Below, piece by piece: positions 116-9,939 of a DNA stretch of 64,000 nucleotides (positions are counted from its first letter, which is position 1; each line of letters starts with the position of its first letter). The position numbers were made by a program, and so were the translations under genes. Where the stretch lies: assembly GCA_900299185.1 (NCBI GenBank), contig OMIV01000068.1, positions 1 through 64,000 on the forward strand, in the 5' to 3' direction. Under the pieces are notes generated by a model, which ran no database searches, was not told the origin of the DNA, and saw only the letters and a list, made by a program, of their open reading frames with translations. Origin of the DNA: Planctomycetaceae bacterium (GTDB lineage: Bacteria > Planctomycetota > Planctomycetia > Planctomycetales > Planctomycetaceae).

Positions 116-3100
116 ATGCGCTCGATGATGATGGCTTTGGTGGTGTTGCTGTTGTTGGTTGTGAAGCCTGCGTCGGCTCAGTCGCTTGATAAGCAGAAGC
201 TGCTTGAGGCTCAGACGTTTTGGGATAACCGCGATTGGGATTGGTACAAGGAGCACATCCCCTTCTTCGAGTGCCCCGATCCCGACATCACGACGACTTA
301 CTACTACCGCTGGGAGTTGCTCACGAAGCATCTCACGTATGGCTCGCCCAACAGCGGGTACTCGTTCACGGAGTTCATCGACCGGCCATTTTGGTCGGGG
401 GCTTATGGAGCCATTAGCTGCCCGGCGGGGCATCAGCTTTATGAGGCTCGGTGGCTGCGTAAGCCGACGATCGCGCGAGACTATTTGAAGTATTGGTTCC
501 GCACTCCGGGGGCTCAGCCGAGGAATTATTCGACATGGCTCGCGGACAGCGCGGTCGCCGTGCAGAGCGTGCATCCCGATGACGCGCTGCTCGTAGATCT
601 GCTGCCGGACTTGATCGCCAATTACGAAGGTTGGGAGAAGCGGCACTTCGTTCCGGAAGTCGGGCTCTTCTGGCAAACCGGTCATGACGACTGCAGGGAG
701 TTCAACATCAACTCGCGGCAAACGAAGGACATCTTGCGAGGTGCTCCGAGCTACCGGCCGTCGTTCAATGCCTACATGTGGGCCGATGCGATCGCGATTG
801 CGAAGGTCGCTCGACTCGCGGGCAAAGAGGACATCGCGAAACGCTTTGACGAGAAGGCATCGTCGATCAAAGCGAAGATGCTCGCGCTGTTGTGGGACGA
901 GAAGCGGCAATTTTTCTTCCCCGTCTTCAAGAACGACGAAGAGCGCGACGGGCACAAGATCAAGGCGTTGACTCGGACTTACGAGAGCGGCCAGTTCGCA
1001 GGCGATTCGCATGGTCGCGAGCTGATCGGCTACGTCCCGTGGCAGTTCAACATGATCGACCGAGACAAGGGTTATGAGGCCGCATGGTCGAAGCTGATGC
1101 AGCGCGACGGCTTTTATTCGGACTTCGGCCCGTCGACCGTCGAACGCAACGATCCGATGTTCTTGCTGAAGAATTCGTGCTGTTGGTGGAGCGGGCAGTC
1201 ATGGCCTTACGCGACGACGCAGACGCTCAAGGCGATGGGGAATTTGTTACAGCGCGAGCAGCTCAATGACGGCTCGAAAGTGGCCAGTAGCCGAACTCGT
1301 GAGAGTTCGGAGGTGCCTCATGCGACGCTCGTCGGAAGTCTTACGACTTCCGCTACATCGGATGCTGCCGTCAAAGCAGCGGTCGCGAAGAGCTTGCCGT
1401 TTCTCGAAAAAGACGGCGTCGCTTGGATGAACGATCGAGGTTGCATGTCATGCCATCACATCCCGTTCCTCGTCTGGTCACATCGAGCGGCTCAAAAGCA
1501 CGGGCTCGCGGTCGACGACAAAAAGCTCGGCGAGTGGGAGCAGTGGTGTCAGAAAGATTCCCTCGCGCATCGCAATCTCTATCGCTTGCAGACGTATGAA
1601 CTGGGGCGAGGCGACGCGACGAAGCTGCCTCAAGAAGTGAAAAACAAGCTTAAGCCGCTCATCGAAAAGCCGTTCAAGACCGAAGCCGAGTTCCTCGCGC
1701 AGCTCAAGCCGTTGCTCACAGAAGAGGAACTCAAGGCGCATCAAGCGGTGATCACGAAGACGGCCGAGCGAGTGCTCAATCAACCCGATCGCAGCGGCGG
1801 CGGATTGGATGTCGTCGCGCAGTTGCTACTTGCCGGGCACGGCAGTGAGAGTGCCTTATCGAAGCCCGAGTTCCGCGATGGCACGGTCGATCTGATGAAT
1901 CAATTACAGCGGCCGAACGGCTCATGGATGCCGGGAAATCAGTTCTTATCGATGCGCCGTTGGTCTGAGTCCGTTGCCGATCAGATTTCAACGATGTGGG
2001 CTGCGCTCGCACTGGCTGCCTATGAGCCTGATGCCGCGAAACGATCAGCGGTCGTCGAGAAAGCGATTGCGTTTCAACGTCAGCAACTCGTGCCGCCCAG
2101 TAACAACGAGTGGCTGGCAACTCGGCTGCTGTTTGAGAAGCAGTTCGGTTCAATGGATGAGGTAACAAAACTGACACAGCAATTGCTCGCGGCGCAGAAG
2201 CCCGACGGCGGTTGGTCTTGGGAGAACGATCGACCGAGCGACGCTTACACAACCGGCATCGCGATCTACGCCTTAGCGAAGGTCGGCGGAGATCACGCTG
2301 AAGTCTTCGCGAACGCGCGCGGCTTCTTGTTGAGTCAGCAAGCTGCCGACGGTTCATGGCCGACGCGAGCGATGAATTTCTCGAAGCAGCAAGACCCCGA
2401 AAAGCTGAAGGCACGCGACGAGATCTATCACTATTGGGCAACCGCATGGGCTGCGATCGGTCTGCTGGAGACGCTCGACAAAGCCCATGCGAATGAAGCT
2501 CAAGCGGCGGCTAATAAACCGGTCGTCACGCAGGCCGACTATCTGAAGTTGTTGCAGATCTATGCGAAGTCGCATCGCAAGAATGGAAAGCCCTATCTCG
2601 CCGAGGCGCTGCATCCCGACACCGGCTCGTTCGAGGGACATGACGGCTACAACCACTCCGAGCATTACTTTCATTCGGGCTTCTGCGATCTCGTGATCAG
2701 CGGGCTTGTTGGGCTGACGACGCGCGAGGACGAGACGCTCGAAGTACACCCGCTCGCTCCGGCGGATTGGGATTACTTCGCGCTCGACGATGTGCCGTAT
2801 CGCGAGCATCGAATCAGCATCTTCTGGGACAAGACCGGCGAGCGCTACAAGCACGGTGCCGGTTTGCGCGTGCTGGTCGATGGCAAAGAAGTGGCAAAGT
2901 CGGAGAAGCTCGCGCGGTTGGTGGTGAAGCAAGGCGTTTCGTTGCCGTCGAGAAAGGGCGTGCGTGATCCGCGCGTTGCCGACATCAATTACGCCGTGAA
3001 CAACGATGGCGACTACTACCCGCGCATCGCTGTGAGTCACACCGGCCCGAGGTCATCGCCCTCGAAGCTGATCGACGGCAACGATTGGTATCACCGCGAT

Positions 3101-3922
3101 CCACCGAATCGTTGGACGACGGAAGGTTCGAAGACCGACACCGATTGGCTCGAACTGGATCTCGGCATGCCCCGCCGCGTGCATACGGCGAAGCTCTTTT
3201 TCCTCGACGACGAGAAGGTCATCGTCGCGCCGACTGAGTTCACGCTCGAAGTGTGGCGCGATCAGAAGTGGCAGCCGCTGCCGAATCAACAGCGAACGCC
3301 GGCTCAACCGATTGGTCATCGTCCGAACGTCGTGAAGTTCGCTCCTCAAGACATCAGCAAGCTGCGAGTCGTCTTCACTCACGGAGCCAACGGCCGCACT
3401 GGCTTAACCGAGCTCGAACTGTGGGGCGACGCCGAGCGTCCCATCGTTCCGGCTCCAGCACCGAAGGGTAATTTGGCTTACAGAAGCCCGGCGAAGCAGG
3501 ATGGCTTCCCGAAGGTCAGCGCGTCGCACACGTCGCGCTACGACAAGGTCGAAATGGTCAACGACGGTCGCATCGTCTACGGCCCGACGCCGCACAATCG
3601 TTGGACGAGCTACGAGTCTAAGTCGCCGACCGACTGGCTCGAAGTGGACTTCGGCGAGCCCCAAGAAATCGGTCGAGTCGACCTGCACTTCTACGACGAC
3701 CGAGGCGGCGTGCAATCTCCGACGTCCTACGTCATCGAGCATTGGACCGGCTCTGAATGGAAGAAGGTCTCGAATGCGAAGTCGTCTCCCGAAACTCCAA
3801 CCGGCGGCGTCAACAACACCGTGCGTTTCGACCGCGTCACAGCATCAAAGGTCCGAGCCGTCTTTACTCACAAAGGCAACTCCCGCAGCGGCCTGACCGA
3901 GATCGAAGTGTGGAAGGAGTAG
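116..3922 (+). CDS. Secreted MGH1-like glycoside hydrolase with an internal squalene-cyclase-like/CXXCH domain and two discoidin-like domains
   Basis: Exported protein of 1268 residues. ATG 116 is chosen because GAGGAG lies about 10 bases upstream and a signal peptide ending ASA follows. Residues ~25-378 read as an (alpha/alpha)6 glycosidase (CCWWSGQSWPYATTQTL from 355). That fold resumes only at ~803 (VVTQADYLKLL, then NHSEHYFHSGF at 846). Between them is an alpha-toroid region with repeated KPDGGW/QAADGSW motifs, as in squalene-cyclase/prenyltransferase folds, opened by CMSCHH at 443-448, a possible c-type haem site. Residues ~950-1109 and ~1117-1268 are two F5/8C (discoidin)-like modules, each ending in a TGLTE/SGLTE motif, likely for sugar binding. 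Polysaccharide degradation outside the cytoplasm is inferred; the substrate is unknown. Palindromes at 1291-1352 lie in frame in the left linker. Confidence 0.8.
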   Translation: MRSMMMALVVLLLLVVKPASAQSLDKQKLLEAQTFWDNRDWDWYKEHIPFFECPDPDITTTYYYRWELLTKHLTYGSPNSGYSFTEFIDRPFWSGAYGAISCPAGHQLYEARWLRKPTIARDYLKYWFRTPGAQPRNYSTWLADSAVAVQSVHPDDALLVDLLPDLIANYEGWEKRHFVPEVGLFWQTGHDDCREFNINSRQTKDILRGAPSYRPSFNAYMWADAIAIAKVARLAGKEDIAKRFDEKASSIKAKMLALLWDEKRQFFFPVFKNDEERDGHKIKALTRTYESGQFAGDSHGRELIGYVPWQFNMIDRDKGYEAAWSKLMQRDGFYSDFGPSTVERNDPMFLLKNSCCWWSGQSWPYATTQTLKAMGNLLQREQLNDGSKVASSRTRESSEVPHATLVGSLTTSATSDAAVKAAVAKSLPFLEKDGVAWMNDRGCMSCHHIPFLVWSHRAAQKHGLAVDDKKLGEWEQWCQKDSLAHRNLYRLQTYELGRGDATKLPQEVKNKLKPLIEKPFKTEAEFLAQLKPLLTEEELKAHQAVITKTAERVLNQPDRSGGGLDVVAQLLLAGHGSESALSKPEFRDGTVDLMNQLQRPNGSWMPGNQFLSMRRWSESVADQISTMWAALALAAYEPDAAKRSAVVEKAIAFQRQQLVPPSNNEWLATRLLFEKQFGSMDEVTKLTQQLLAAQKPDGGWSWENDRPSDAYTTGIAIYALAKVGGDHAEVFANARGFLLSQQAADGSWPTRAMNFSKQQDPEKLKARDEIYHYWATAWAAIGLLETLDKAHANEAQAAANKPVVTQADYLKLLQIYAKSHRKNGKPYLAEALHPDTGSFEGHDGYNHSEHYFHSGFCDLVISGLVGLTTREDETLEVHPLAPADWDYFALDDVPYREHRISIFWDKTGERYKHGAGLRVLVDGKEVAKSEKLARLVVKQGVSLPSRKGVRDPRVADINYAVNNDGDYYPRIAVSHTGPRSSPSKLIDGNDWYHRDPPNRWTTEGSKTDTDWLELDLGMPRRVHTAKLFFLDDEKVIVAPTEFTLEVWRDQKWQPLPNQQRTPAQPIGHRPNVVKFAPQDISKLRVVFTHGANGRTGLTELELWGDAERPIVPAPAPKGNLAYRSPAKQDGFPKVSASHTSRYDKVEMVNDGRIVYGPTPHNRWTSYESKSPTDWLEVDFGEPQEIGRVDLHFYDDRGGVQSPTSYVIEHWTGSEWKKVSNAKSSPETPTGGVNNTVRFDRVTASKVRAVFTHKGNSRSGLTEIEVWKE
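1291..1352. repeat. Pair of REP-like palindromes translated within the coding region
   Basis: Two perfect 8-bp hairpins with 4-base loops sit 22 bases apart: 1291-1298 pairs with 1303-1310, and 1333-1340 pairs with 1345-1352. They encode a Ser/Thr-rich linker (about residues 392-413) just before the internal squalene-cyclase-like domain. Paired short hairpins of this form are typical of intergenic REP elements, so their presence inside an open frame is odd. Confidence 0.6.
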
Positions 3923-4953: not shown

Positions 4954-6336
4954 CTAGGCATCCGTGAAGGGGCCGGCTTGGAGAGCGGCAAGGGCTTCTC
5001 GGACTTTTTGGCCACTTAGCGATGCGACTTCGGTTTTGCTTTCGAGTGACAGCGCGGCTGCAAGACCCGCGGCTTCTCCCATCGCCATTGCGGTGACGGT
5101 GACTCGCGTGGAAGCGTGGGCTCCGCGAGTGGCAGAGTGGCAACGGCCGGCGACCAAGAGGTTCTCGATCTTCTGTGGTAGCAGCGAGCGGTAAGGAATG
5201 TCGTAAGGCTCGGGCTGCACCTTCTGAGGATTGAAGTCGTTCGCGCTGCCGATCGTGGTCTTGTTGGGATGCAGATCGAGATACCAACAGCCGGTCGCGA
5301 TGGCATCATCGAAGCGGCGACTTTGCATCAGATCTTCTTCGCTCAAGACATGCTGACCGATGATGCGACGGGACTCGCGCACTCCGATCCACGGATAAGC
5401 CTCGATGAAGTACGAGTCTGCGAACGCTGGGACGTCTTTCTTCCAGGCTCGAAACATCGCATGGGCGTCGGCTCGACCTTGAGCTTCCGCGCGGCTGAGG
5501 TCTGCGGCGTCCGTGGGATTGGCAGGGACTCGCACGCCATGCACGTAGATCTCTTCTTTGCCGAACATGAACATGACGCCGGGGCCGTAGTAGTACGGCA
5601 GCTCGCCTCGCTTTTGAGCGGCTTCCAAGGCGGCTCGACAGAGCCCACCGATGCCCGGTCCGCCTTTCACGTTGCCGATCCGAAAGTGCAACGTCAGCGG
5701 TTGGACTTCTGCATTCTGCTCGAACGGAGCACCGGCCCACGCGGCTACATCGGCATCGCCGGAACAGTCAATGACGACCTTGGGTTCAATGGTTACGAGG
5801 CCATCCTTATTGGCGATCGTGACCGACCTAATTCGCGAGCCGCTGGTCTGAGCGTCGCAGACAAACGAGTTGAAGAGCACATTCAAGTTGGCTTTTTGTT
5901 CTTGAAACGTGCGATCGAGTAGTAGCTTGAATTCGAAGGTATTGGGGATGGTTGGATTGTGCTTGGACACCGTCTTGGCATCGGGTGCGCAGACTCCTGA
6001 CTTGGAGAGCAGTTCCAGAGCGATGCCTCGCACGACGATGCGATGATCGCGGATGTTGGCGATGCCATCGAAGTACGGCAGGCCAACGCTGGTGATGATG
6101 CCACCTGCAAACGGAGCTTTCTCAACGAGCAAGACTTTGGCTCCTCGTCGGGCTGCTGCGATGGCTGCGGCACTTCCGGCGCACCCTCCACCGCAGACCA
6201 GCACGTCGGTCGGCAGAGTTCGTCGAGACCGTGGTGCGGCAGTATCGGCTGCGAGGCTCGGTGTAACTCCTGTTGCAGCGGCGACTGTCGCAGTGGCTTG
6301 AATGAAGGAACGTCGCGATTGCAGTGAGTCAGTCAT
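4954..6336 (-). CDS. Tat-exported FAD-dependent oxidoreductase (FAD_oxidored family)
   Basis: 460 residues. The N-terminus carries a twin-arginine signal (SRRSFIQATATVAAATG). A dinucleotide-binding motif follows (VLVCGGGCAGSAAAIAAARRGAKVLLVEK, near residue 45), then FAGGIITSVGLPYFDG, and VIDCSGDADVAAWAGAPFE in the middle. The C-terminus has NLLVAGRCHSATRGAHASTRV, typical of the FAD-closing segment of the PF12831 family. It is probably a periplasmic flavoprotein acting on an unknown, perhaps sugar-derived, substrate. It is transcribed away from the DUF309 gene by a 297-base spacer that holds a MITE-like element. Confidence 0.88.
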   Translation of the reverse strand: MTDSLQSRRSFIQATATVAAATGVTPSLAADTAAPRSRRTLPTDVLVCGGGCAGSAAAIAAARRGAKVLLVEKAPFAGGIITSVGLPYFDGIANIRDHRIVVRGIALELLSKSGVCAPDAKTVSKHNPTIPNTFEFKLLLDRTFQEQKANLNVLFNSFVCDAQTSGSRIRSVTIANKDGLVTIEPKVVIDCSGDADVAAWAGAPFEQNAEVQPLTLHFRIGNVKGGPGIGGLCRAALEAAQKRGELPYYYGPGVMFMFGKEEIYVHGVRVPANPTDAADLSRAEAQGRADAHAMFRAWKKDVPAFADSYFIEAYPWIGVRESRRIIGQHVLSEEDLMQSRRFDDAIATGCWYLDLHPNKTTIGSANDFNPQKVQPEPYDIPYRSLLPQKIENLLVAGRCHSATRGAHASTRVTVTAMAMGEAAGLAAALSLESKTEVASLSGQKVREALAALQAGPFTDA

Positions 6337-8559: not shown

Positions 8560-9939
8560 ATGTCCGCTTCCTCGCATAGCGTCGGCTGTTCTGAATTTCG
8601 GCAAACTCTGAAGCAAAGTCGGCGCAGCTTTTTGAAGGCTGGAGCGATCGGCTTCACCGGAGCAGGGCTCGGCCTATCGGACGTTTTGCGAGCCAACGCG
8701 TCGTCAGCAGCGGCCAACAAAGAGCACTCGGTGATCATCCTCTGGATGCGCGGCGGACCTGCACATCAAGACATGTGGGATCCTAAGCCGTTGGCCCCGG
8801 TCGAGTACCGCGGCGAGTTCGGAGTGATGGACACCAACGTGCCCGGAATCCAGCTCTCGGACATGCTGCCGATGTGTGCTCGGATTCAAGACAAGTGGTC
8901 GATTCTCCGCAGCTTGTTCCACCACGATGCGGGGCACTCGGCCGCCGATCAGATTTGCTTTACGGGCTATAACTCGGGACCGAGCCCCGACGAGAACCTC
9001 TTTCCGAGCTGCGGTTCAATCGCAGCCAAGCAGCTTCAACATCTGACTCCCGAACTGCCGGCTTACGTGATGATTCCGAAGATGGTGCCCGGCACGGATT
9101 CGGCTTACTTGGGTGTGGCCTACAAGCCATTCGAGACTTTGGCTGATCCTGCCAAAGAGGGGCCGTTCTCGGTGCCGAACTTTGCGTTCGCCGACGGTGT
9201 GACGCTTGATCGCTTCAGTGACCGGCGCACGTTATTGCATGGCTTTGATCAGCTCCGCAAAGAGGTTGATCTGTCGGGCAAGATGGAAGCAATGGATCGG
9301 TTCGAGCAGCAAGCTTGGGGGTTGCTCTCAACGGACAAGGCTCGCCAGGCGTTCGATTTGGAAGCTGAGCCACATGCGATCCGCGAGCGTTACGGATTCA
9401 TGCCCGCGTTTGATCCGGGGGCTTCGAACCGTTGCGGTGCTCCGGCCTGGAGCCAGCGCATGCTGTTGGCTCGCCGACTTGTGGAAGCCGGAGTGCGAGT
9501 TGTCACCGTTGATCTGCGATGGTGGGACACTCACGTGAAAGGCTTCGAGTCTTTGCGACTTGGGTTCTTGCCGAGATTCGATCGAGCTTACTCGGCGCTG
9601 ATTGAGGATCTCGATCAACGTGGCTTGTTGAAGAACACTCTGGTTGTCGCATGGGGCGAGTTCGGTCGAACTCCGCGCGTCAACAACGACGCTGGACGAG
9701 ATCACTATCCCAACGTCTTCAGTGCCGCGTTAGCCGGTGGGCCGATCCAGGGAGGTCGAGTTGTGGGCGAGTCCGATGCGAAGGCAGCGTTTCCCAAGGC
9801 CAATCCGAAACCGCCTCAAGATGTGCTGGCCACGATCTACGCGCACTTGGGAGTAGACCCGACGCAGGTCTATCTCAATCGAGCCGGGCGACCGAACATC
9901 GTCTTGCCGTTCGGCAATCCGCTGCATGAGTTCTCCTAA
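8560..9939 (+). CDS. DUF1501 domain protein, Tat-exported
   Basis: 459 residues. QSRRSFLKAGAIGFTGAG is a twin-arginine signal. VIILWMRGGPAHQDMWDPKP, the SILRSLFHHDAGHSAA region, VAWGEFGRTPRVN and GRDHYPNVFSAALAGG are hallmark blocks of DUF1501, a family with an alkaline-phosphatase/sulfatase-like fold. The family's reaction is not established. A strong hairpin with a T-run (9971-10046) follows and may end the transcript. No PSD1 gene is adjacent, unlike the usual arrangement. Confidence 0.92.
   Translation: MSASSHSVGCSEFRQTLKQSRRSFLKAGAIGFTGAGLGLSDVLRANASSAAANKEHSVIILWMRGGPAHQDMWDPKPLAPVEYRGEFGVMDTNVPGIQLSDMLPMCARIQDKWSILRSLFHHDAGHSAADQICFTGYNSGPSPDENLFPSCGSIAAKQLQHLTPELPAYVMIPKMVPGTDSAYLGVAYKPFETLADPAKEGPFSVPNFAFADGVTLDRFSDRRTLLHGFDQLRKEVDLSGKMEAMDRFEQQAWGLLSTDKARQAFDLEAEPHAIRERYGFMPAFDPGASNRCGAPAWSQRMLLARRLVEAGVRVVTVDLRWWDTHVKGFESLRLGFLPRFDRAYSALIEDLDQRGLLKNTLVVAWGEFGRTPRVNNDAGRDHYPNVFSAALAGGPIQGGRVVGESDAKAAFPKANPKPPQDVLATIYAHLGVDPTQVYLNRAGRPNIVLPFGNPLHEFS

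Follow-up and report, generated by a model that had tools for sequence, protein, structure and literature searches.

The nearest solved relative of the glycosidase considered here is BT_1020 of Bacteroides thetaiotaomicron (5MQR), a GH142 enzyme in which Glu694, Tyr702, Trp943 and His1019 lie near the ligand; the general base of related families has been placed at the position of Glu713 of HypBA2 (PMC7263609). At the DNA level, the closest described elements are the GTAG REPs, which are known to occur within open reading frames and in Planctomycetes (PMC3733652). The insertion of one domain into another is already known as an event, and we found no description in the literature of a glycosidase combined with a toroid. 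How one domain comes to lie inside another is usually argued from structures. In the gene described here, a whole secreted protein has naturally become inserted into the catalytic barrel of another enzyme. It can be compared with relatives whose site is empty, with stand-alone forms of the inserted protein and with a second fusion, which makes the question testable in the DNA.

The fused gene and its glycosidase half

We analysed a window of 64,000 nucleotides of contig OMIV01000068.1, from a genome designated G000. A first-pass annotation of the window had placed the in-frame insertion of a whole domain at 1254-2520. Comparison with relatives that have an empty site set the inserted stretch at residues 382-802 (window 1259-2521), a few bases away from that estimate, and the parts of the gene are listed in Table 1. 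The fused open reading frame is uninterrupted, with neither a stop codon nor a frameshift, and its signal peptide (MRSMMMALVVLLLLVVKPASAQ) was judged by inspection. The Pfam family MGH1-like_GH matched residues 97-383, and the match broke off at profile position 317 of 356; the two F5/8 type C domains near the C-terminus were likewise recognised by Pfam.

Table 1. Positions of the fused coding sequence and its parts in the window
Feature	Position	Strand	Remarks
Whole fused CDS	116..3922	+	1268 aa; signal-peptide-like N-terminus, insert-split GH142-like (alpha/alpha)6 barrel, two C-terminal F5/8 type C domains
Glycosidase barrel, N-terminal part	182..1258	+	residues 23-381; FTEF Glu and CCWW Trp align with BT_1020 ligand-near residues
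FTEF Glu	365-376	+	N-terminal barrel part; hand-mapped
CCWW Trp	1178-1189	+	N-terminal barrel part; hand-mapped
28-nt linker (QLNDGSKVA)	1259..1286	+	from comparison with empty-site relatives
REPIN-type palindromic element, 5' seam, translated in frame	1287..1356	.	GTAG + hairpin 1 + spacer + hairpin 2 + CTAC
Hairpin 1 of seam element	1291-1298/1303-1310		8-bp stem
Hairpin 2 of seam element	1333-1340/1345-1352		8-bp stem
Inserted alpha-alpha toroid domain	1355..2482	+	residues 414-789; homology to stand-alone secreted proteins
CMSCHH (CxxCH motif)	1442..1459	+	residues 443-448
39-nt tail linker (AHANEAQAAANKP)	2483..2521	+	site where stand-alone relatives end with a stop codon
Glycosidase, C-terminal part	2522..2995	+	residues 803-960
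Glu of LAEALHPDTG	2597-2626	+	putative general-base position
His of YFHSGF	2666-2683	+	C-terminal glycosidase part
Two F5/8 type C (CBM32-like) domains	2996..3919	+	best stretch residues 1158-1256

A profile of the empty-site glycosidases was aligned with 5MQR (E 2.8e-112) and matched in two stretches over positions 34-521 of 667, covering the barrel and the beta-domain that follows it; where the insertion lies, the alignment shows only a short gap. Judged by this alignment, the fused barrel is GH142-like. BT_1020 has a short loop where the fused protein has about 420 residues, and, unlike BT_1020, the fused protein continues into two F5/8 type C domains. The GH142 residues near the bound arabinofuranose were mapped by hand onto the Glu of FTEF (with numbering ambiguous by one), the Trp of CCWW and the His of YFHSGF, all of which are kept. 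The Trp precedes the insert and the His follows it, as does the Glu proposed as the base; each is conserved in the hand alignment. The glycosidase is expected still to cleave a terminal sugar, the likely one being an L-arabinofuranoside or something similar from plant or algal polymers. Genes near the fused one in the window include an FAD-dependent oxidoreductase (4954-6336, minus strand) and a DUF1501 protein (8560-9939, plus strand).

Empty sites and a second fusion

The glycosidase was searched for in 101 genomes of the family and 170 genomes of the order (overlapping sets). In 19 of the 21 homologues inspected, the positions equivalent to query residues ~382 and ~802 were adjacent, with a loop of a few residues between them; 18 of these junctions were inspected by sequence and one (L047, in G150) by hit coordinates. 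The fused architecture, taken in the annotation to be an insertion unless it was shared across many genera, was present in the other two homologues, from two genera, and the insertion reading stands. The second fusion, in JAPLNX010000519.1 (G131), has the same composition and lies at the same loop, in an ORF of 1350 aa from a different genus of the family; this genome was assembled from a metagenome, and its isolate name indicates Lake Pavin. The occurrence of the same fusion in an independent second genome indicates that it is neither chance nor an obvious artefact. G131 also carries a separate stand-alone toroid (C526, 58%), and the fusion there is therefore no simple relocation. The fused insert accounted for one of 25 named loci in the genome collection, and the sole other genome of the window's genus examined (G026) contained neither the fusion nor the glycosidase.

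Since both fusions are known from draft metagenome-assembled genomes, an assembly chimera joining two separate genes could be suspected. We consider this very improbable: two assemblies made independently each show an in-frame join at this loop, the signal peptide and the stop codon of the inserted protein have been lost precisely, and a search of G000 for a separate copy of either partner found none at high identity, so that the single glycosidase and the single toroid of this genome both lie within the fused ORF. The G131 fusion in particular argues strongly against a chimera.

Between the two fused genes, dN/dS was 0.076 for the N-terminal glycosidase part, 0.144 for the insert and 0.167 for the C-terminal glycosidase part, values that are rough because dS was near saturation (1.86 for the insert). 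Both the glycosidase and the insert are thus under purifying selection, the insert at a dN/dS of about 0.14. A set of 11 empty-site glycosidases shares 237 invariant columns, of which G000 keeps 232 and G131 keeps 236; the 22 stand-alone relatives of the insert share 90, of which G000 keeps 80 and G131 keeps 88. An insert that is merely carried along without function, in a fusion that is decaying, would fit the long branch of G000 in the insert tree (0.37) and the linkers, which are unconstrained between the two fused genes. The retention of invariant residues, the mostly conservative nature of the ten changes in G000, the dN/dS of the insert and the intact reading frame speak against decay, which we regard as improbable. 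The fusion is genuine and rare, and it is under constraint. AU tests of a single versus an independent fusion gave p 0.27 for the insert tree and p 0.14 for the glycosidase tree.

The G131 fusion (L044/L078) has a further in-frame insertion of ~21 residues, around position 317 in the numbering of the window protein. The DNA that encodes it folds into a palindrome and is similar to an intergenic repeat found upstream of the L060 toroid gene.

The inserted toroid and its stand-alone relatives

Residues 411-791 matched stand-alone ORFs, mostly of 410-453 aa, at 55-68% identity, in agreement with the earlier suggestion that the middle of the protein is a separate planctomycete protein elsewhere. 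The stand-alone toroids have their own signal-peptide-like N-terminus and stop right after an end such as ...GLLETLGKSGS; the insert corresponds to the mature form of such a Planctomycetota protein, minus signal peptide and stop. Relatives of this kind (for example L073, SYJG01000374.1) share with the insert the whole mature domain, the CxxCH motif and the QW-like repeats, and differ from it in being separate proteins. No Pfam family covering the stand-alone toroid was found, and a literature search for a toroid-CxxCH family returned nothing on point. In L073 (4323-8435), the stand-alone toroid gene lies between genes for an MR/MLE (enolase superfamily) enzyme and a BNR-repeat protein.

The motifs noted in the first-pass annotation, CMSCHH and DGGW/DGSW, were located in the insert, the latter within two of three QW-like repeats (QLQRPNGSW, QKPDGGW and QQAADGSW). 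The CxxCH motif is kept in 22 of 22 aligned stand-alone relatives and is conserved even in distant toroids (16 of 16). The motif thus stands in an exported protein, as in c-type cytochromes, with export judged from the signal peptide by inspection. A ResB-family match over its cut-off, partial in extent (positions 150-265 of 486), suggests that G000 has a cytochrome c maturation system, and a haem role for the toroid is possible on the strength of the CxxCH motif.

Modelled alone, the insert was predicted to be an alpha-alpha toroid (pLDDT 86.7), consistent with the expectation that it folds as a separate body. In a model of the whole fusion made without a deep alignment (mean pLDDT 53.8), the glycosidase half was unusable and the insert was still folded, with block means of about 49-94, mostly above 70. 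The nearest solved folds were the squalene-hopene cyclases (Z about 25, 14-20% identity), and epimerases, glycosidases of GH76 and GH105 and complement-type domains were also near. Because this fold is common to many enzymes, it shows no function by itself. The description of the insert as squalene-cyclase-like therefore holds for the fold and the QW-like repeats, which it shares with squalene-hopene and other class II terpene cyclases, and fails at the level of family: squalene-cyclase profiles from Pfam and NCBIfam scored 12-29 bits against curated cut-offs of 26 to 851, each under its cut-off, and the DxDD acid motif of cyclases was absent from the insert and from 21 of 23 other aligned rows, lying at an unconserved spot in the remaining two. 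The insert is also much shorter than a classical squalene-hopene cyclase, is exported and carries CxxCH. With such scores, no DxDD and a fold that recurs in glycosidases, epimerases and complement proteins, the proposal that sugar cleavage had been joined to a lipid function was not borne out.

On balance we favour, as probable, an account in which a mature toroid was grafted into a loop of a secreted GH142-like glycosidase and acts there as a tethered second module. The insertion point would be the short loop that joins two helices towards the end of the (alpha/alpha)6 barrel, and what was inserted there would be an entire second protein in its mature form, the secreted CxxCH-bearing toroid that has its own gene in related Planctomycetota. 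Since the loop tolerates insertions, we propose that the barrel and the toroid form separate folded bodies within a single chain; both keep their conserved residues. The toroid would probably carry one covalent haem c, to judge from its motif, and would be exported together with the glycosidase, so that both could act at the same place and may benefit from being tethered.

A REPIN-type palindrome at the 5' seam

Beyond what the first-pass annotation had noted, we found a REPIN-type palindrome at the 5' seam, ending where the conserved toroid begins. When its hairpins were searched for across the window, single copies only were found. We built a covariance model from nine GTAG...CTAC elements, in which 8 of 15 pairs showed compensatory change, and obtained 8 matches in G000, 72 in G131, 58 in G135, 51 in G163, 141 in G082 and none in G159. 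Since the model matches its nine founding elements by construction, the evidence lies in the further dispersed copies. The gapped pattern GTAGCCGA..CGCTAC was rejected as count evidence, its count being below that of the reversed control in nearly every genome; from that search, structured matches alone were fed into the covariance model. The element resembles REPINs, the RAYT-associated GTAG REP pairs, in its two inverted hairpins, its outer GTAG and CTAC, its dispersal in related genomes and its compensatory stem changes, with only 8 matches in G000 itself; it differs from known REPINs in its position, within a coding frame and at the seam between two domains. Three genes for transposases of the Y1_Tnp (IS200/RAYT) type are present in G000 (C305, C278 and C269; L098-L100).

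A mobile-type hairpin at the seam is a candidate agent of the insertion, and is the most interesting lead here, though unproven. Palindrome pairs in the glycosidase loop and upstream of a toroid gene could have served as the exchange point, the seam element being the scar. Apart from the position of the element at the very start of the conserved toroid, this would be in keeping with the presence of Y1 transposase genes, with an element of this type that alone occupies the same loop of the G135 glycosidase, in frame and with no toroid, with what may be relics there in G159 and G163 (read by eye), and with a weak model match (E 0.11) upstream of a stand-alone toroid gene (L062/L084, the same locus in two tools). 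Against it, no recognisable element was found at the G131 seams at E up to 1, none was found at the 3' seam of the G000 fusion, and the G000 and G135 elements are unlike in stem sequence and reading frame and so look like separate insertions. We consider such an exchange unlikely. The broader idea, that REPIN-type elements in these Planctomycetota act as in-frame graft points, entering permissive loops of secreted enzymes and then guiding the recombination that splices in whole foreign domains, is slightly more doubtful still; if true, it would mean that these elements make new multidomain enzymes. A literature search for REP-mediated domain insertion returned nothing on point.

The seam would be accounted for, somewhat more plausibly than not, by a barrel loop that simply tolerates insertions: the toroid would have arrived through ordinary illegitimate recombination, and a REPIN-type element would later have landed in the linker already there. 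This alternative concerns the origin of the protein and not its architecture. Empty-site relatives differ in the length of the loop, and the 5MQR alignment shows a short one. Related genomes carry many REPIN-type elements (51-141 matches in four of six), GTAG REPs inside ORFs have precedent (PMC3733652), and the G131 fusion has no recognisable element. A permissive loop leaves unexplained why the end of the element coincides exactly with the first conserved residues of the toroid, something that chance nevertheless permits.

A second REPIN-type element in G000 (L010:1218-1281; G000:C128:3217-3280) lies in frame inside a 766-aa ORF for an Eco57I-type DNA methylase, and is read in the same frame as the copy in the window (RSQTRESSDS).
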